Shown: one piece after another, positions 18,848 through 44,249 of the stretch
How positions within the stretch are numbered: the first letter of the stretch is position 1
Layout: each line of letters starts with the position of its first letter
IMG/VR virus record: IMGVR_UViG_3300042356_000058
Location: 1-64,000 of that record
Origin: a virus
Length of the DNA: 64,000 nt
Direction: 5' to 3' (one strand)
Program-made: the position numbers and the translations under genes
Notes under the pieces: generated by a model
Seen by the model: the letters and a program-made list of their open reading frames with translations, nothing else
Told to the model about the DNA's origin: nothing
Database searches by the model: none

Positions 18848-18883
18848 ATAGGTTGTCAAGTCTTTGACAACCTATGCTATAAT
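18848..18883 (+). promoter_or_regulatory. Promoter with a 12-bp-arm operator driving the MoxR/VWA module
   Basis: ATAGGTTGTCAA (18848-18859) and TTGACAACCTAT (18864-18875) are perfect inverted arms around GTCT. TGC followed by TATAAT (18878-18883) is an ideal extended -10; TTGTCA at 18853 is a possible -35 with long spacing. The operator fills the -35 and spacer, so a bound dimer should repress. The next start codon is at 18911, behind an AGGAGAAG site. Confidence 0.75.
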
Positions 18884-23595: not shown

Positions 23596-23848
23596 AACCA
23601 CGGCAAGGACAACCATCGGCATGATGCGTTCAATGGCAAGTCATGTACCAATCAGCCCCTTTCATTTGCAAGCCGCTAAAGATATGGAAGACATGCTTGC
23701 AGAACTGTCGGAGTTACGCAAGCTGGGCAGAGGTAGCGGTAAGCGCAATGACGTACTAGAAGAAGTGGCGTTGGAGTTTGAGAAGATGAAAAACTTCGGT
23801 GACACAAGCGCAAGCTTTGCTGTGTTTGTGCGGAGTATGAAAAAGTGA
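23579..23848 (+). CDS. Small helical early protein
   Basis: 89 residues from the ATG at 23579, which has AAGGAG 8 bases upstream; the reading from 23552 has no such site. Helical (AAKDMEDMLAELSELRKLG, LEEVALEFEKMKNFGD). It ends in an ATGA-type overlap with the next gene. Function unknown. Confidence 0.65.
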   Translation: MKKLSETTARTTIGMMRSMASHVPISPFHLQAAKDMEDMLAELSELRKLGRGSGKRNDVLEEVALEFEKMKNFGDTSASFAVFVRSMKK

Positions 23849-24111
23849 AAAGCAATCACAACATCATTCGAGAACTACTCAAACAGTACCCCGATGGTTT
23901 GAAGTCAAGCGATATAGCTAAGCTCACGGGCATAGACAATCGTTCTGTCAACAAATCATTGGAGGGTGTGTTTGGTGTGTACGTAGATCGGTGGGAGAAG
24001 TCAACTCACCGCAATACACTAGCCGCAATATGGGTCGTCGTTGACGTACCCGAGAACTGCCCGAAACCAAATAACATGGGCAGAAGAACCAAATTAAATT
24101 CAAAGGACTGA
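23845..24111 (+). CDS. Small HTH protein
   Basis: 88 residues. IIRELLKQYPDGLKSSDIAKLTGIDNRSV reads as a helix-turn-helix (about residues 7-40), and GVYVDRWEKS could be a wing. DNA binding is likely, target unknown. The last codons lie inside the first arm of the pseudoknot-order repeats that follow. Confidence 0.65.
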   Translation: MKSNHNIIRELLKQYPDGLKSSDIAKLTGIDNRSVNKSLEGVFGVYVDRWEKSTHRNTLAAIWVVVDVPENCPKPNNMGRRTKLNSKD

Positions 24112-24259
24112 CGTGTTCACGATAAGATGATTTGTGCAAGCCCAGTAGATGCGACCACACTTTGTCGGCAACAAGGGGCGTCCAGTCCTTTGAGTATTGA
24201 CCTCTTGTTGCCATTCCGCAACGCGACACGAGGGGGCGCGTAATCTACTTTACCCCCTC
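24100..24259 (+). ncRNA. Candidate structured RNA with pseudoknot topology
   Basis: TCAAAGGACTG (24100-24110) pairs over 11 bases with CAGTCCTTTGA (24183-24193). GGCAACAAGGGG (24167-24178) pairs over 12 bases, one of them G-U, with CCTCTTGTTGCC (24201-24212). The arms alternate A-B-A-B, which is an H-type pseudoknot with a 56-base loop; that loop contains a CGTG / CACG mini-hairpin. A third hairpin GAGGGGG (24230-24236) / CCCCCTC (24253-24259) follows. This is the largest gene-free break in the middle of the replication genes. The pairings are seen; the fold and function are inference. Confidence 0.5.
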
Positions 24260-24281
24260 ACCTAATTAACAGGAGGTTGAC

Positions 24282-24563
24282 ATGTCAACACCAGAAGTAA
24301 AAGTCAAGAAGCAGATACGCAAGATACTAGATGAGTTGGGCGTGTACTACGCCATGCCCATCGGGACAGGGTACGGGAACTCGGGCGTGCCTGACTTCCT
24401 TGTATGTGCTAACGGCAAGTTCGTTGGCATTGAAGCGAAAGCAGGTAGGGGTAAAACCACCGCGCTACAAGAAGCCCATCTGAGCCGCATACGTGGCGCA
24501 GGGGGGACGGCAGTTGTCATTAACGAAGACAACATACACACATTAAAGGAGGTTTTATCATGA
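24282..24563 (+). CDS. VRR-NUC domain nuclease
   Basis: 93 residues, the size of stand-alone VRR-NUC proteins. SGVPDFLV (PD at 37-38), GIEAKAG (EAK at 51-53) and LQEAHL (Q63) form the PD...ExK...Q active site. These enzymes cut branched DNA and are suited to resolving replication or packaging intermediates. The AGGAGG site is ideal. The ATG lies inside the perfect palindrome GTTGACATGTCAAC (24276-24289), which may be regulatory. Next gene coupled by overlap. Confidence 0.85.
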   Translation: MSTPEVKVKKQIRKILDELGVYYAMPIGTGYGNSGVPDFLVCANGKFVGIEAKAGRGKTTALQEAHLSRIRGAGGTAVVINEDNIHTLKEVLS

Positions 24564-35667: not shown

Positions 35668-35845
35668 GGGCTTCTTCGTACCGGGGCTAGATGTGGAAAA
35701 GGTGAGGGAGTTAGGCTTACGTGCCGCTCTCCCTCACCGCATCCAAGCGCGTGCTGTCGTGGGTATTAAGAACCACCAACTAGGCGTATGGTTTTATCGG
35801 AAATTTCCCGCGTCGTATTTGCAAGCCCAATCTTCATCTTCCTGA
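35627..35845 (+). CDS. Small protein at the early/late convergence
   Basis: 72 residues from the ATG at 35627, overlapping the primase gene by 41 bases in another frame. LKPGEGFFVPGLDVEKVRELG and HRIQARAVVGIKNHQLGVW form a pattern I recognise as a small conserved phage protein. The last 27 residues lie on the opposite strand of the giant late gene, an 80-base convergent overlap. Function unknown. Confidence 0.65.
   Translation: MEIIYPWAKLKPGEGFFVPGLDVEKVRELGLRAALPHRIQARAVVGIKNHQLGVWFYRKFPASYLQAQSSSS
35701..35738. repeat. 10-bp inverted repeat at the convergent junction
   Basis: GGTGAGGGAG (35701-35710) and CTCCCTCACC (35729-35738) around an 18-base loop, inside the small plus gene and 28 bases before the stop of the minus gene. 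There is no T tract on either strand. Its place between converging units suggests a role in transcript ends, but this is not proven. Confidence 0.45.
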
Positions 35846-38800
35846 TCTCGTCAAGCTGTTTACGCTTTTCTGCAGGCGTCATAGTAGAGGAAGCAACCGC
35901 ACGCTCTGCTTGAGTCAACATATTCATGTTTGCTTTGAACGTGTTGGCAAGCTCTGCCTGCATGTAGTCCGTGCCGCGCTTGGTCATCAAGGCTTGGGCT
36001 TCTTGCACTTTGCCGTCTTTCAACAAGCTGTCGACAGTAGACTTGACTTGAACATACTCGTTCATGCGTTCGTACACAGAGTTGATGATGCCGCCTGCGT
36101 CATTGGGCTGGAACGCACCGCCTAAGATTGGGTACTCAGACAGGCGTCTGACCGCACGCTCTGGGGTTTCTTTAGCCGGTACGCCAAGGCTGATAGCCTG
36201 CAAGAAAGCCAGACCCATCGTTCCTGTATAGCCACTGACAAGCGCCTCAATCTTAATTGGAGATATACCCAAGGTACTACCAACCAGCTTGGCGGCGTCG
36301 GTTGTGTTGACGCGGTACTGTTCTTCAGGCAACAACTGTTTCTCGCGTGCTGACAGAATGTCGCGGCCTGTGTAGAACGACTTGCCAAGACCTACCTCGA
36401 TCAAAGGCTTGGCCGCTTGCGGTATACCATACGACGAACCGCCGGGGACTGTCTGCAACAAGATCTGCTTGAACGCCTTGATTGCTTCTTCCCCGCCATG
36501 CTCAGTGGTCATGGTGTTGTACAGCGCCTCAGGGATAGCTTTGAAGATGTAGCCAATCTCAAACGGCACAGGGACTTTGATGGGCTCGTCCAATCCGGGC
36601 AGACGTATAAACCAGTTGCCATACTTCTGGTCTGGTGTAGCGTTCTTGTAGGCTTCGTCGTCCTCCATCATCACGGCGTAGGCAAACGTAGCCGCCGCCA
36701 TCATGCCGCCTCGCTGCAACATCTTTTCACGGATGCGCAGTTGATCGTTGAAAGGCATCTTGCCAGACATCGCCTTGTACATCACGTTCAGACCTTGAAT
36801 CTGTGCGTTGAAGAAAGGAATCAACGAGTTGAGTACATGCACGCTTGGAGAAGCTCCGCGCTTGTTAAAGTTCATGGACTCAAGAGCCATGAGTGTTGCT
36901 TCCATTTCAGACAAGCCTTGCTCAATGTAGCTGTTGTACTGGGCACGACGCGTAAGCGCGTCAGCCTCCATACCCATTGCTTCAAACCTTCCCAAAGCTT
37001 TCATCCAACCGGGCTGACCGTCCGAAATCTCGCGCAAGATCATGGACAAGTCTTCGCTTGTGCCACGGAAGTACTGCCCGCCCACAATACCGCGCTTCTC
37101 TAGCTTCTCTTTAGCCGTGCCGTTGAGCTCGCGCAGTGCGCCAACAATAGGGGTGAAGTCAGCGCCAGACAGGATAGGAGCCGCTAATGAGTCACGGAAC
37201 AACTGCTTGGCCATGTACAAGGGGCTCAGCGTAATAGCTTTACGTAAGACTTGCGCAGGCATAGCCATGACACGGAACAGGAACGGCATCTGCGTGGGGA
37301 TACCCTCCATGCCCTTAACCAGCAAGTCGGCAGGCACGCCCGTCTCAAACTCCTTGTTGCCGATCATCACCTTCTCAGTAGCAACGATTGCGTAACGGTC
37401 ATCTCCGTCTACTTTAAACTTAACAACGTCTGAGCCGTCAGCTTTCTTTACAAGCGTAGCGGCCTTCAGGTCGACCAGTTCCATGACTGCGTTCTTGGTT
37501 GCAAGGTTACGCATGCCCATGTCTACCAACATGTTGGTGTTCTGCACTGAGCTGGTCATGAAGTCGATGATGGCTGTGTCGCCTCCCACTAACTTGTCTA
37601 GGTAAGGTTGCTCCGCAATACTTCCAATGCGGATTGGGTTCTCGTTGCCGATCACCAACTCGACGACACCTTTGCGCTCACGATAGAACGGGATGTAGTC
37701 GTCCTCTGCCACAAGCTTCTTGACAAGCGCTTTAGACAAAGCGCCAGTGCTGGCTACAAAGTCCAAAAGGTCGCGATTGTACTTGTTGTACTCTGTGCGG
37801 GCTTCCTCAAACACCTTCTTCAGCGGTGCGTTCTTGTTAACCAAAGCAGTAACTTCATCAAGCATAGCTTCTGTCAACACAGGTTTGCCGTCCTTGTCGG
37901 TGCCAAAGTTGAGCGTATCAATACCTTTGTTCTTGGCACGAATAGCCGCCATGTATGTTGTAAACACTTGGTTGACAGCCTCGCCGTTACCAATGTACTG
38001 ATTAGCCTCTTTCAACTTGTTCACAACACCAGCAATACTGGCACCGCCTGTTGTCTCAACAAGTCGCTCAACACGGCCATCATCACGCTTTATCTCGCGA
38101 ATTGAGGGCGCTCCATCAGACACAGCCTTAGACACAATGTTCATGCGTTGGTCGTACGAACGGAGGTAGTACAACATCTGGGTGCCCTTGAGCGGCTCCA
38201 TGTACTTAGCCAAACGCTCAAAGCCTGCAAAGCGGTCAACAAGCTGTGTCTCAAACGCAAGGCCGGACGTGTTGGCTTTGATGCTATCCCACCAAGTCTT
38301 GTCCTGCGCCACAACTTTTTTCATGGTTGCGCGTACGTTATTGAACTCAGGATTGTCGTATGCAATCAAAGGCGCTGGAAGAGAGTCTGAACGTGGGTCA
38401 ACACCCGCTTCGTAGATTTCTGTCTTTGTGCGCTGCATGATTTCTTCTGTCAGCACCATGCTCTCGGCAAACAAAGACTGCATTGCCTTAGCAGGCATGC
38501 TAAATGAGCGGCTCAAGAACTCTACCAAACGTGTCAGCAAACTCTTGCGCGGCATGTCCGACGGAATCTCAGCCAGCATCTTTTGGAACTCAGGGTTTGC
38601 AAAAGTCTCTGCAAGGAACTCTTTGTTGTTTGTCAGGCCGTACAAGTCTGGGAAGTAGGGCATACCGTCAAAGGTTTTCTGACGAAAATTCTTTTCTAAC
38701 CAAGCTTCGCCTTCTGGCGTAAAAGACCACTGCTCAACACGCTCGCGTAGCACAGTAACGCGATTGTCTAATGCCTTGTCTTGGGTCAACATCTTTACAG

Positions 38801-41800
38801 ATGCGGCATGAACAAGTTCGTGCAAAAGCGTTTGCATTGGGTCAAGCTTGGCCTCGCTAACAATCACCATGTCTAGGCTAGGGACGTAGTAGCCTGCCGC
38901 GCTTCCCATATAGCTGTGCATAGCCGTCTCAGATGCAAACACTCGACCGCTGTACTTGTCTGGCTTTGCATCCGCAAACACTTCTTGCATGCGCTCAAAC
39001 AGCGCTTTTTGGTTTGCATTCTTTGCACGCTTCGCGCCATACTCAGCGGCTTGGGCAAAGCTTAATCCGTTGTACCCAATGTCTGTGGCCAGTTTAACGC
39101 CAAGTTGATTAAACTTACTGTTTGCCTGAGAGTCAGAAACTGTTAACGGTTTTTCTGCTTTTAGTTTGGCCGGAGCCAAAGTAGGCGGTGTCTTTTCGCC
39201 ACGGAAACCACCGCCGGGAACAGTGATGACAACGTCATCCGCAGTTATTCCTTCTAAGAAGTCAATTCGTTTCTGAATGCGGCTAGCAAGCGTTGGGTTG
39301 CTGTTCTTGTACAAACCTGCGTCTGACTTCAAGCCTACCAAGATACGGCTCTTTGCGGCTTGAAACTTACTAGCATGCGTTTGATTAACGCCAGCCACAC
39401 GCATATACATGCCATGCACATCGCTAAGCAAACTGCGCTCAGTTGCGTCTGTCAACTCTGCTACAGGTGTGCCCTTGTATGTAAACGTGGGGCCCAAAGA
39501 CATAGCATCAAAGTCAAGGTCAAACTGTGTACGAGCTTCGCTAAAGTCAACAGATGTACGACCACCGCCAAAGATGCCGCGCACGTCGTCAGAAGAAACA
39601 AACGCGCCTAAGTCCAACGTGTCTTTCACACGCTCACGCTTTTTCTCAGGCGACAACAATGTCTTAATACTTTGAGAAGCAGGCACATTGCCCGTGCGCA
39701 AAGGTTTGCCTTTGGCTTGACCAACAGAGCTTAGTGTTGTTGCGGCTTTCTGTTTTCTGCGAGGCTTGCCTTCTTGGTCTACTTCGTATTGCGCTTCCAC
39801 AGATTCCATAGACTGCAACACGCCAACTTTAGCCATAGCCATAATGCGCGTGTTGTCTGACTGCGTTTCGTCGTTGATAATTTTCTTTAACTCACTGAGG
39901 TCATCAGGGCCGGGGATGCTTTCAGCTTCTAGCATCAAGCCAGTTACTTCATCAACGTACGTATTAAAAGCGGCTTCTTTGCGTGCAGTGCGAATAAACG
40001 CGTCTTCTTCTTTATCCAGCGCTTCCATTGCTTTGTTACGCAACACTTCTGCTTCTTTTTCAGCAGTAGTCTGAATGCGCTCGACCTTGCCTTCTTCGCG
40101 CTTGATGCCTTCGCCGCCAAGCTTATCTTTCCAGAAGTCTTCTAGCTTCTGTGTTTCTGTTTTAGCAACTTCTTTAAATTCCGTGGCACGTTTCTCAGCG
40201 GCTTTAAGCGTAGCTCTTTGTGCGTCAGCGTTTTTCTTAGCTTGTTGGTAGGCAAATGGGTACGAACCGGGTTTGTCAAGGACGCTCTCCCCGCGCATGG
40301 TGGCAAGGTTGGCTTCCAGCATTTCTAAATACTGGCGTTCCATCTTGACGTTGCCATCAAGCATGGCTTGTGCTACGGCGTAACCGCCGTCGTGTTCAGT
40401 TGAACGCTCGTTAACTAAATCGCCTAGTTCTGTTTCCTGTGCTTCAACTTGTTTCTTGAGGTCGTCAATGACGCCCTTCTTTTCTGCGTAACGGAACAAC
40501 TCGTACGTGGCAAGCTCGGTGCGGTTAGCGCCTCCTTCTTGTGCCAACACGCTATCAAAGCGTTTCTTAATTTTGTCTAGTTCTGCTTGTTCTTTATCAA
40601 GCGTTGTCTTAGCTTTTTCAAGATCGGCACTGGCTTTACTAACTACGGGGTCAAGCAGGAACGCCATTGCGTCGTCCATCTCCCGGCGAGCATTGGTAAT
40701 CGCTTTCTCTACTGCTTGCTGATATGTGTCGCGTTGTTGCTTAATAGCTTTCTCAGAATTAAGCATTGCTTTCTGTTCAGCGGATATAACCACTGAACCT
40801 TGCATAGCTTTCTTAACTTGCTTAATAGCTTCGCGTAGGGGGGCCAGTCTGTCGTTCAAAGCTTTTGCTGCTGCGCGAACGTTTACATTGGTGTCTTGCA
40901 TGAACGCCAACAACTGATTGTCTGTGTCGTTAAGACGGCGTCCGTCAGCTAACAGCCTCATGGCTTCATCAATTTGCTTTCTATACTTGGGCAGGTGTTC
41001 TGTTTTAAACTCCCTTACCAAACGTTCGGCAATCTGCTGTTCTTGCGCAGACATAGGCTGGAGCGTGCGGTACTTTTCTAGAATAACTTTTTCTTCTGGC
41101 GTTGTGCCTGCTTCTGGCATACCCACAAACACTTTTGCTAACGCCTCGTCAGAGTAGCGGCTTGTGTCTTTCCAAAAGTACTGCGTGTCTGCAATTATGC
41201 TGTCGCCACGTTCTTTGACTCTTTCAAGGAACTGCATGCGCTTGGCCACTGTCGCTTTTCTTACTAGCCGTTCTTGTTCAGACTTCTTAAACAGACTACG
41301 CGCTTTATCAAGCGCTTCCCATACAGGGCGTATGCGTGGAGAGTTGGCAAAGTTCTTTGGTGTTGCTCGGATGTAGCCTAACTCTTCTTGCGCCTCCGGG
41401 AACAACGCCTTCTGTCCTTGCGGCACAGTCTCAGTAGCGCGGATAGCATCCTTGATAGCTTGAATATCTACCTGCTTAACGTCGCGTCCTGCGACGATGG
41501 CGTCTACTACGGGCTCGACCTTGTCCAGAATCTCACGCGTAGCTTGGTTCTTATCCATCAAGTCAGCGGCAGCATTGAGGGCATCACGGGCACCCGGACG
41601 CATTGCACCCATCTTAGACATCTTGTTGCGTACAAATTCTGTACGGCGGCGCAGTTCACCGCGAAGAGTGGTCGCTGTTTCACCGCGAGCTTCGGCAGTC
41701 TTCTTAGCTTCCGTTTCTTTAAACTGTCGTTTGAGTACACCTGTTTCTACACGAGTGGGTTTGACGTCAGGCTTCTCGTAGAGAATCCGCATTGCTTCTT

Positions 41801-44249
41801 TAATGCGTTCTTGAAACTGCGCCACTTCTTGTGGCTGCATGCTTGATACACCTTCTTTGACTACGCGGCGTTCTGTTTTTGCGGCGCGTACAACTTTGTT
41901 TGCTCGCATCTGAGCAGGCTCAACAATGACTTCTTCGTACTCAGCGCGTACTGGTTTTTGTTTTGAGCGGGCGACCCATTCGTTAATCGAGTCGTATATG
42001 TTAGATGCAGCTTTAATTGCTTCGTCTTGGGTAATGGCAGGCTGACCTGCGGCACGGCGGTTCAACGCGGCTTCTTGTAGTGCTGAAGAAATAATCTGAC
42101 CGCGTACTTGTTCAGCTTGGTTGGTCAACGACTGTTCTGTGGAGGCAGATACCCCTTTGCCAAAACCAACAAGTTGCGTTTCCATTTCTCCGGTATCTGG
42201 ATTACGTACTCGTTCAGTTTCTTTACCAAGTGTTTGTTCGGTGCGCAGTTGCTCGGTGATGTCGCTCAGCTTGGCCATGGCCTCTTGCTGTTGACGGCGT
42301 GCGGCAACAACTTCACGAGCGTAGTCACCACCTTCTTTACTAAGCTGGTCGATCTTGGCAAGGGCTGTCTTGCCTTTGGTCAAAGCTTCCATGGCTGCGG
42401 CACGCTCTGGCGCACCGCGCTTACCTTGGGATGGCATCGCGTAGCGGGCTGTGCGGTAGTCTTGGTCAGCCTTGTCTACTTCTGCAATCAATGAATCCAG
42501 CTTCTCTCGGATCTGTTCGCCGCGAGGTATGGGCTTGACCTTATCGCTGACCTTGATGACGGGCTCTCGATCAAGCGCCTTCTCAAACATTGGGTCAAGG
42601 TAATCAAAGTTTGGCTCAACGTTTTTCTTTTGCTCTTCCACCTGCGCTTCAGACTCCTTGAACATAGCCATCTGATCTTTAGGCTGTGTAAGTTTCTGTT
42701 GGTCAAACGCCTGCTCTTGCTCGCGTTGTTTAATAGCGGTCTTGGCTTCAGCGGCTACGCGTGTTTTAAGCACGTCGTATATTTCTTCGCTACGCAGACC
42801 TTCAGGCAAACCTGTCAATGTTGGGCGTGTTTGTACAAGCTGCTGGGCTTTGGTAAAGTCCTGCATCAAATAGTCCACGTAGTCTTTCTTAGCTTCAGAC
42901 TTGTACTTGGGTGTGTAACTAGCCGCCGTGTTCATCTGGTCGTTAGCCAACGCAATGCGTTGGTCAGCGTACTCAGCAACTTGTTGACGAGGGGTTAGTT
43001 CAGCCGGTGGCTTGGGAGGTGTAGCAATCTGTTGCTCATACAACTCAGGCTCCAGCTCTTTCTTCTGTTCTTCTGTCTCAGGCGGCAGGCCAAACGCATA
43101 CTCCTGAGGCGTGAGCTTGGCAACACGCTCTTGCTCTGCCATCTGGCCAAGCATGCCTTTGGCTTTGTAGTAGTCCTCGGAAAGCGGCGCAATCTCTTTG
43201 GTCAGTTCTCTAAGCTGTGCATTAAGCTGCGTATTAAACGCTTTGTCAGCATCGTACGTAGGTGAGTCTTTTGTTACTTTCTTAAACTGCGCAATTATGT
43301 CTTGCTTTTGTTTAGCCAGTGCGTCGTACTTCTGCACAACTTCTTGTGCGTACTCAGGCTTTGTCTTACGCTGACGCTCTTCTTCAAGGCGTTGCTCTTC
43401 CTCGGCACGAAGCGTGGCATATTCGTCTTGGGGTTTAGGCCCACCCTTGGCACGACGACCGAGCGCTAAGTCAAGCAAGCCCTGAGCTAACGCGCCAACT
43501 CCGCCGCCATAAGCAGCGGACTCACCAACGCCCTCAATAATTTCTTGTTCTGCTTTGTATATACCTTTTGAGATCAGGTTTTGCGCAGCTTGAGACGCAG
43601 CTTCCTGCGCGGCTTCTTCACCACCGGCCATCAATGCACGTTTAATGTAAGAAACAACGCCTTGAGCTACAGGTTGGCCAAGGCGACTCAAAATACGAGC
43701 AGGCGCAAACATCTCGCTAATACCAACAGCGGCACCAAGAGCGGTTGAAGCCGTCTGCTGTCCTTCAGTTGCGCCCTCTGCGGCTGACTTCTCTACTTGA
43801 TAACCGGCTCCTGCTCCAGAACCTAACGCAGCCATGATCCCGCGCCCTGCTAAACCAAACGGCCCTGCGGCCAAGAAAGGAGCAATAGAGCCTGTAGCTT
43901 CACCAAACTTCCGCGCCACCGTGTCTTCGTAGCCCGGCGCAGCTTCAAACGGTTTTTTAAGGGACGCGGCGGTTTCTTTAATTGATCGCTGCGCAGCTTT
44001 TTCTTGTTCCTCTGGCAGCAAAGCAGAGATACCAACACCGGCTTGTTCTACCAACCCAATAGCGCCGGGGGCTAGACCTTTGAAGAACTCTTTGGCTTGA
44101 CCGCCAACAGTGGTTTCTTTTTTCTCAGGAGCTTTGGAAGCAAAGGCTTCCGGATACATGCGCTGTGCCCGCTCCCACGTTTGTGCAGGAGTTTCGCCCT
44201 CCCTAATGGTTACAAATCTACCGTCTGGTAAAGGGAGTGCTTGTGGCAT
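35766..44249 (-). CDS. Giant internal virion / ejected polyvalent protein
   Basis: 2827 residues, the last late gene. It opens MPQALPLPDGRFVTIREGE. At 100-260 are Gly/Ala hydrophobic stretches (FLAAGPFGLAGRGIMAALG). About 270-1650 is mostly charged coiled coil. Near 1800-1890 is a metallopeptidase-like domain with LLHELVHAASVKML and a downstream FLAETFANPEF as a possible third ligand. Around 2330-2560 the LPD38-like part (SPLYMAKQLFRDSLAAPIL, MNFNKRGASP, LIPFFNAQIQGLNVMYKAM) is typical of large polyvalent proteins. Such proteins are carried in the head and injected with DNA to form a conduit or act on host factors. The stop is shared territory with a small plus gene. Confidence 0.85.
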   Translation of the reverse strand: MPQALPLPDGRFVTIREGETPAQTWERAQRMYPEAFASKAPEKKETTVGGQAKEFFKGLAPGAIGLVEQAGVGISALLPEEQEKAAQRSIKETAASLKKPFEAAPGYEDTVARKFGEATGSIAPFLAAGPFGLAGRGIMAALGSGAGAGYQVEKSAAEGATEGQQTASTALGAAVGISEMFAPARILSRLGQPVAQGVVSYIKRALMAGGEEAAQEAASQAAQNLISKGIYKAEQEIIEGVGESAAYGGGVGALAQGLLDLALGRRAKGGPKPQDEYATLRAEEEQRLEEERQRKTKPEYAQEVVQKYDALAKQKQDIIAQFKKVTKDSPTYDADKAFNTQLNAQLRELTKEIAPLSEDYYKAKGMLGQMAEQERVAKLTPQEYAFGLPPETEEQKKELEPELYEQQIATPPKPPAELTPRQQVAEYADQRIALANDQMNTAASYTPKYKSEAKKDYVDYLMQDFTKAQQLVQTRPTLTGLPEGLRSEEIYDVLKTRVAAEAKTAIKQREQEQAFDQQKLTQPKDQMAMFKESEAQVEEQKKNVEPNFDYLDPMFEKALDREPVIKVSDKVKPIPRGEQIREKLDSLIAEVDKADQDYRTARYAMPSQGKRGAPERAAAMEALTKGKTALAKIDQLSKEGGDYAREVVAARRQQQEAMAKLSDITEQLRTEQTLGKETERVRNPDTGEMETQLVGFGKGVSASTEQSLTNQAEQVRGQIISSALQEAALNRRAAGQPAITQDEAIKAASNIYDSINEWVARSKQKPVRAEYEEVIVEPAQMRANKVVRAAKTERRVVKEGVSSMQPQEVAQFQERIKEAMRILYEKPDVKPTRVETGVLKRQFKETEAKKTAEARGETATTLRGELRRRTEFVRNKMSKMGAMRPGARDALNAAADLMDKNQATREILDKVEPVVDAIVAGRDVKQVDIQAIKDAIRATETVPQGQKALFPEAQEELGYIRATPKNFANSPRIRPVWEALDKARSLFKKSEQERLVRKATVAKRMQFLERVKERGDSIIADTQYFWKDTSRYSDEALAKVFVGMPEAGTTPEEKVILEKYRTLQPMSAQEQQIAERLVREFKTEHLPKYRKQIDEAMRLLADGRRLNDTDNQLLAFMQDTNVNVRAAAKALNDRLAPLREAIKQVKKAMQGSVVISAEQKAMLNSEKAIKQQRDTYQQAVEKAITNARREMDDAMAFLLDPVVSKASADLEKAKTTLDKEQAELDKIKKRFDSVLAQEGGANRTELATYELFRYAEKKGVIDDLKKQVEAQETELGDLVNERSTEHDGGYAVAQAMLDGNVKMERQYLEMLEANLATMRGESVLDKPGSYPFAYQQAKKNADAQRATLKAAEKRATEFKEVAKTETQKLEDFWKDKLGGEGIKREEGKVERIQTTAEKEAEVLRNKAMEALDKEEDAFIRTARKEAAFNTYVDEVTGLMLEAESIPGPDDLSELKKIINDETQSDNTRIMAMAKVGVLQSMESVEAQYEVDQEGKPRRKQKAATTLSSVGQAKGKPLRTGNVPASQSIKTLLSPEKKRERVKDTLDLGAFVSSDDVRGIFGGGRTSVDFSEARTQFDLDFDAMSLGPTFTYKGTPVAELTDATERSLLSDVHGMYMRVAGVNQTHASKFQAAKSRILVGLKSDAGLYKNSNPTLASRIQKRIDFLEGITADDVVITVPGGGFRGEKTPPTLAPAKLKAEKPLTVSDSQANSKFNQLGVKLATDIGYNGLSFAQAAEYGAKRAKNANQKALFERMQEVFADAKPDKYSGRVFASETAMHSYMGSAAGYYVPSLDMVIVSEAKLDPMQTLLHELVHAASVKMLTQDKALDNRVTVLRERVEQWSFTPEGEAWLEKNFRQKTFDGMPYFPDLYGLTNNKEFLAETFANPEFQKMLAEIPSDMPRKSLLTRLVEFLSRSFSMPAKAMQSLFAESMVLTEEIMQRTKTEIYEAGVDPRSDSLPAPLIAYDNPEFNNVRATMKKVVAQDKTWWDSIKANTSGLAFETQLVDRFAGFERLAKYMEPLKGTQMLYYLRSYDQRMNIVSKAVSDGAPSIREIKRDDGRVERLVETTGGASIAGVVNKLKEANQYIGNGEAVNQVFTTYMAAIRAKNKGIDTLNFGTDKDGKPVLTEAMLDEVTALVNKNAPLKKVFEEARTEYNKYNRDLLDFVASTGALSKALVKKLVAEDDYIPFYRERKGVVELVIGNENPIRIGSIAEQPYLDKLVGGDTAIIDFMTSSVQNTNMLVDMGMRNLATKNAVMELVDLKAATLVKKADGSDVVKFKVDGDDRYAIVATEKVMIGNKEFETGVPADLLVKGMEGIPTQMPFLFRVMAMPAQVLRKAITLSPLYMAKQLFRDSLAAPILSGADFTPIVGALRELNGTAKEKLEKRGIVGGQYFRGTSEDLSMILREISDGQPGWMKALGRFEAMGMEADALTRRAQYNSYIEQGLSEMEATLMALESMNFNKRGASPSVHVLNSLIPFFNAQIQGLNVMYKAMSGKMPFNDQLRIREKMLQRGGMMAAATFAYAVMMEDDEAYKNATPDQKYGNWFIRLPGLDEPIKVPVPFEIGYIFKAIPEALYNTMTTEHGGEEAIKAFKQILLQTVPGGSSYGIPQAAKPLIEVGLGKSFYTGRDILSAREKQLLPEEQYRVNTTDAAKLVGSTLGISPIKIEALVSGYTGTMGLAFLQAISLGVPAKETPERAVRRLSEYPILGGAFQPNDAGGIINSVYERMNEYVQVKSTVDSLLKDGKVQEAQALMTKRGTDYMQAELANTFKANMNMLTQAERAVASSTMTPAEKRKQLDEIRKMKIGLANTTREISDKTIRLVGGS

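Follow-up and report, generated by a model that had tools for sequence, protein, structure and literature searches.

The window, that is, the whole stretch of 64,000 nucleotides of viral DNA analysed here, contains a gap between two genes that an earlier note on this DNA had placed in replication, and the gap accommodates a structured RNA. The upstream ORF ends at position 24111 and the VRR-NUC gene starts at position 24282. The features of the locus, all on the plus strand, are as follows.

23845–24111, +, upstream gene of 88 amino acids (HTH in the earlier note)
24096–24263, +, whole structured RNA (covariance-model match 24094–24264)
24100–24113, +, P1 5′ arm, pairs with 24179–24193 and holds the stop codon of the upstream gene
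24126–24136, +, P2 5′ arm, double changes at all 9 pairs
24144–24150, +, P3 5′ arm AGTAGAT, in the P2 loop, pairs with 24243–24249
24156–24166, +, P2 3′ arm (covariation)
24167–24178, +, P4 5′ arm, interlocks with P1
24179–24193, +, P1 3′ arm (covariation, arm swaps)
24201–24212, +, P4 3′ arm (arm pairing, swaps, covariation)
24221–24225, +, P5 5′ arm ACGCG, pairs with 24237–24241
24230–24236, +, P6 5′ arm GAGGGGG, pseudoknots with P5 (variants in relatives)
24237–24241, +, P5 3′ arm CGCGT (covariation, arm variants)
24243–24249, +, P3 3′ arm ATCTACT (covariation)
24253–24259, +, P6 3′ arm CCCCCTC (covariation)
24271–24276, +, Shine–Dalgarno (SD) sequence AGGAGG of the nuclease gene
24282–24563, +, downstream VRR-NUC-type nuclease gene (label of the earlier note), with matches to PHROG endonucleases and Holliday junction resolvases

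The product of the upstream gene had no Pfam or PHROG match. The earlier note had reported an 11-bp and a 12-bp inverted repeat interlocked in the order A-B-A-B over 113 nucleotides, and both were recovered at exactly the positions given: TCAAAGGACTG (24100–24110) pairs with CAGTCCTTTGA (24183–24193) at 11 of 11 positions, and GGCAACAAGGGG (24167–24178) pairs with CCTCTTGTTGCC (24201–24212) at 11 of 12. Its judgement that such an arrangement is unlikely by chance holds, as an 11-mer and a 9-mer inverted repeat interlocked within 125 nucleotides occurred in 0 of 60 dinucleotide-shuffled versions of the 64-kb window, compared with once in the real sequence. The first arm runs, as described, into the end of the upstream gene, whose TGA (24109–24111) lies inside the arm. 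The 7-bp element further downstream (GAGGGGG, 24230–24236; CCCCCTC, 24253–24259) pairs at 7 of 7 positions; however, it is not the simple hairpin proposed, since ACGCG (24221–24225) and CGCGT (24237–24241) interlock with it. The helices P2 and long-range P3 were absent from the earlier note. The pseudoknot-free minimum-energy fold of positions 24090–24282 is unusually stable (z −3.1).

The RNA is approximately 165 nucleotides long and comprises six helices with three interlocked pairings: (i) P1 and P4 form an H-type pseudoknot; (ii) P5 and P6 form a second H-type pseudoknot in tandem with the first, and the two are joined by the hairpin P2; and (iii) P3 is a helix formed between two loops, that of P2 and that of the P5/P6 pseudoknot. 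P1 is composed of 11 bp plus 3 bp past the bulged C24182, and P2 is composed of 24126–24130/24162–24166 and 24133–24136/24156–24159 with a 2 × 2 internal loop between them. In the window copy, the P4 5′ arm contacts the P1 3′ arm and the P6 5′ arm contacts the P5 3′ arm with 0 bases between. The tandem-pseudoknot fold is shown by covariation. A covariance model (R1) built from 55 homologues matched the window copy with 148.3 bits (E 3.7e-46) as the sole copy in the 66.5-kb record, and 17 of 17 RNA-bearing records contained one full copy each. Weak second matches of 14 nucleotides in G423 and G424 were attributed to chance; the rest of the RNA is absent there.

Relatives from IMG/VR were collected through searches with the neighbouring proteins, after which the gap was aligned; pattern scans gave three overlapping sets of IMG/VR stretches (115, 96, and at least 119) and two GTDB contigs. 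The distinct cores extracted numbered 96, plus further divergent ones, and the RNA was found with compensatory changes in more than 100 related virus sequences and two bacterial chromosomes. A neutral, structure-free MAFFT alignment of 55 homologues contained double changes in 41 of 53 pairs; 470 double-change cells were counted, compared with 210 ± 14 in a shuffled control (3′ letters dealt anew) and at most 237 in a control in which the partners were slid. For 90 distinct homologues, the corresponding figures were 46 of 53 pairs and 1015 cells; the shuffled control gave 384 ± 18 cells and the slid control no more than 377. The fit of this larger alignment used P2, P4, and P5 alone, and the counts for P1, P3, and P6 are therefore unfitted. 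Kinship inflates the contrast with the shuffled control, and the slid control, which retains relatedness, was still far exceeded. The P2/P4/P5 covariance model matched 90 of the 90 sources searched, 55 of which had entered the model, with some matches reaching only 39–47 bits. A match of 22 bits in G722 was discarded because it had no P3 motif.

The compensation can be followed helix by helix. The relative L038, for example, has TCAGAGGGCTGACA/TGTCAGCCCTTTGA in P1 and GGTAGTAGTTG/CAACTACTACC in P4, and arms scored higher with their own partners than with swapped ones, both for P1 (25 versus 15) and for P4 (27 versus 17). In the main run of P4, 92% of the cells are paired and every pair has double changes. 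P1 is only 56% paired in the 90-sequence alignment, a figure that we put down to misalignment of the unmodelled 5′ arm; when each sequence was parsed on its own, P1 was strong in 89 of 96 RNAs and P4 in 94 of 96. P3 is paired in 99% of cells, with compensatory change at 4 of 7 pairs. The first search pattern demanded GTAGAT and AATCTAC, so the invariance of P3 among its matches is uninformative; a P3-free pattern, defined by P5 and P6 only, recovered compensated P3 helices (GTATAT/ATATAC, GCAGAT/ATCTGC, ATAGAT/ATCTAT, and GTAAAT/ATTTAC) and a few RNAs with one P3 mismatch. The first pattern also fixed GGGG of the P6 5′ arm and the P5 3′ arm, leaving their partners free. P5 is paired in 99% of cells, with CCGCG/CGCGG, CCACG/CGTGG, and GCATG/CATGC in relatives, and P6 occurs as GGGGGG/CCCCCC, CAGGGG/CCCCTG, AAGGGG/CCCCTT, and GGGAGG/CCTCCC. 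The earlier note had named arms changing without compensation as the observation that would speak against it; the homologues gave the opposite, massive compensation.

When G-U and A-C were scored alike, G-U pairs in the helices outnumbered A-C pairs by 212 to 49. Such an excess indicates that the gene-sense strand folds. Of the possibilities raised in the earlier note, a replication-related DNA structure is thus disfavoured in its double-stranded form, since the bias fits RNA or sense-strand single-stranded DNA, and the orientation relative to the downstream genes is constant. Another of its suggestions, a new structured RNA, is strongly supported by the covariation in all six helices, the strand bias, and the lack of an Rfam match. 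Searched at gathering and permissive thresholds, Rfam 15 offered no family for the RNA: there were 0 matches in the window, only chance-level ones at 23900–24400, and none at the RNA in seven divergent loci. ARAGORN found no tRNA or tmRNA in the window. A Y RNA of the Ro60 system was also considered and rejected, as a TROVE-domain protein was encoded in 0 of 13 records. A 38-codon ORF inside the RNA (ATG at 24127) is not a gene, because its start is lost in L006 and the loops differ in length without keeping the frame.

In the 90 homologues, the bases with a conservation of at least 85% lie in the P2 loop (GCC preceding P3 and G following it), P3, P5, P6, and their joints, and include C24261, whereas the sequences of P1, P2, and P4 vary. 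One variant, L412 (940–1125), keeps P2, P3, P5, and P6 but leaves no space for P1 × P4, in place of which there is a hairpin upstream. Because nearly all conserved bases are in P3, P5, P6, and their joints, and P1 × P4 varies freely and is replaced in L412, P3/P5/P6 is probably the working site and P1 × P4 may be a stabilising domain. The L412 variant may also mark the minimal functional core.

In most loci, the RNA starts around the previous stop codon and ends 16–30 nucleotides before the next start codon, and it is always in sense with the downstream gene. The genes beside the RNA in 96 loci are a nuclease (60), a DNA polymerase (2), others (29), or unassigned (5); the other neighbours include DUF2201 VWA/metallopeptidase, AAA, PD-(D/E)XK, and unknown genes, several of them DNA-related. 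Conversely, among 78 relatives of the nuclease with enough upstream DNA, 65 have the RNA upstream and 13 do not, and in most of these 13 another gene reaches up to the nuclease gene. The 63.8-kb genome G403 and the window have many genes in common, on both strands and including the nuclease gene, and G403 had no match to the RNA. In L331, L264, and L304, a strong intrinsic terminator (a GC-rich hairpin and a T run) starts 28 nucleotides past P6, and a near-consensus promoter lies between it and the next gene. This one small clade is the source of the terminator evidence, and the L304 promoter was read by eye. In these three, the RNA appears to close one transcript, with the following gene having its own. 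In L250, L270, L282, and L319, the upstream gene is RusA-like and divergent, and the RNA lies just after the start of the divergent gene, which indicates that a co-oriented upstream gene is unnecessary. The varied neighbours, the RNA-less relatives, the terminator clade, and the divergent RusA-type gene together point to a unit independent of either neighbour. A consensus scan found no promoter of the RNA's own near the window copy or in L282.

The −35 box of the promoter in L331 (1336–1364) and L264 (9843–9871) lies within a TTGAC..GTCAA inverted repeat, which is operator-like. The window has a similar repeat at 18848–18875, in the gap before the DUF2201 gene, where a 12-bp hairpin, ATAGGTTGTCAAGTCTTTGACAACCTAT, is followed by GCTATAATTT.

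Most carriers of the family belong to one broad group of phages. Apparently chromosomal, non-phage copies occur in two Rhodoferax-type genomes (L332 and L413), where the RNA follows a MerR-family gene; the next gene in L332 encodes a VIT/VWA protein, and the two copies differ by a compensated change in P6. Beyond these two the RNA is rare in bacterial genomes: in a search of more than 1,100 of them, the only other matches were L331's own MAG and one discarded weak match. Blastn against cultured phages and plasmids gave no match covering the element; the blastn matches of L331 extend over no more than 15% of the query, those listed lying outside the RNA, most of them on the terminator hairpin. 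We found no description of the RNA in the open-access literature, which is weak evidence of absence.

On balance, and at slightly better than even odds, we read the element as a self-contained, sense-strand noncoding RNA of approximately 165 nucleotides, probably acting in trans, and the first member of a new family to be described. We lean a little more firmly towards the broader statement that this phage noncoding RNA belongs to a new class, retained as well in some bacterial chromosomes, and that its fold around the P3/P5/P6 core works in trans, either as a catalyst or on a host component. The RNA lies within the replication operon of the phage or closes the operon before it. Once transcribed, it would become a separate species by release or termination and would work in trans, offering a rigid P3/P5/P6 surface that a host component or a small molecule, and not a phage protein devoted to it, would recognise. 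A host target is the likeliest because no phage gene tested tracks with the RNA in a small sample: among five genomes compared, no window gene was found in all four RNA-bearing genomes yet missing from G403.

The position of the RNA between a stop and a start codon in most genomes would also suit a cis-acting control element, riboswitch-like or translational, in which the fold governs ribosome access to the gene some 20 nucleotides on and may be linked to the translation of the gene before it, which has its stop codon in P1. The downstream genes, which often act on DNA, would suit such a role, and in the window's own clade 14 nucleotides (24197–24210) can pair with the SD region (24267–24280) with one mismatch, a pairing that excludes P4, so that a two-state switch is conceivable. 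This complementarity is found, in full or in part, only in the close relatives L001, L006, L016, L032, L010, L011, L013, L027, and L024. As a general switch, the pairing was rejected: across 54 dissimilar loci, complementarity between the RNA and the SD region scored 15.3 with own and 15.4 with swapped partners. Moreover, the next genes differ, L331 has a terminator and a promoter between the RNA and the nuclease gene, and in some relatives the RNA is missing upstream of the nuclease gene. Translational control, the remaining suggestion of the earlier note, is therefore not supported as a family-wide role; within the window's clade, the SD pairing is a possible translational switch and could be a local addition. 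As an account of the family, cis-acting control is unlikely. Dicistrovirus intergenic IRESs, with three pseudoknots and a similar size, also lie between two ORFs; by contrast, the genes downstream of our RNA have their own SD sequences, some genomes lack the RNA or have a terminator between it and the next gene, and it has no Rfam match.

Less likely again is processive antitermination, in which the RNA would act on RNA polymerase during transcription, with a function like that of the put RNA of HK022 or the EAR element. Such an RNA would not be bound to one neighbour and would keep its sense orientation, as observed, and the copies directly preceding an intrinsic terminator (L331, L264, and L304) or just past a divergent gene start (the L250 group) fit it. 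The put RNA is a phage RNA of early operons, described as needing no dedicated phage protein. However, it is approximately 70 nucleotides long, has two stem-loops located downstream of early promoters (PMC9378689), and is without pseudoknots of the kind found here, where six helices and three interlocks extend over approximately 165 nucleotides. In addition, the window operon has no clear excess of terminators, and the RNA is often in mid-operon.

The compact multi-pseudoknot fold, the conserved core, and the intergenic location could also belong to a self-cleaving ribozyme separating the transcripts of the flanking genes. We regard this as improbable, as there is no Rfam ribozyme match, the 5′ boundary is without strongly conserved bases, and the terminator clade has no downstream transcript to separate. 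Least probable is a sense-strand single-stranded DNA structure for replication, packaging, or repair, an idea also raised for STAXI RNAs near DNA-handling genes (PMC2864571), which would suit one copy per genome in a replication module but not an element that is sense-oriented in gene gaps followed by SD-preceded starts or terminators, that occurs in bacterial genomes beside unrelated genes, and that is missing from related phages.

Among the closest known systems, the GOLLD and ROOL RNAs, ornate RNAs of phages and prophages whose function is unknown, are likewise elaborately structured and supported by covariation (PMC12286853), but they are hundreds of nucleotides long, whereas our RNA has approximately 165 nucleotides, no tRNA neighbours, and no Rfam match. 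STAXI is also a pseudoknot motif near genes for DNA-handling proteins (PMC2864571); it consists of a repeated pseudoknot with UUCG loops, in contrast to the single tandem double pseudoknot with a loop–loop helix described here, which Rfam does not match. The manA and wcaG motifs are structured RNAs of environmental phages as well, proposed to be cis-regulators of metabolic genes (PMC2864571); the window RNA differs in having no Rfam match. What is new is the RNA family and its fold. It is uncommon for a structured RNA family to show so much covariation and to have no known relative, and each of the earlier ones (riboswitches, ribozymes, and ornate phage RNAs) gave rise to a new line of research. 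The present RNA is small, single-copy, and recurrent in uncultured phages, and its conserved core is accessible to direct experiment.

Elsewhere in the window, the minus strand carries an ORF of 2827 amino acids (35766–44249), which has matches in all five related phages compared.
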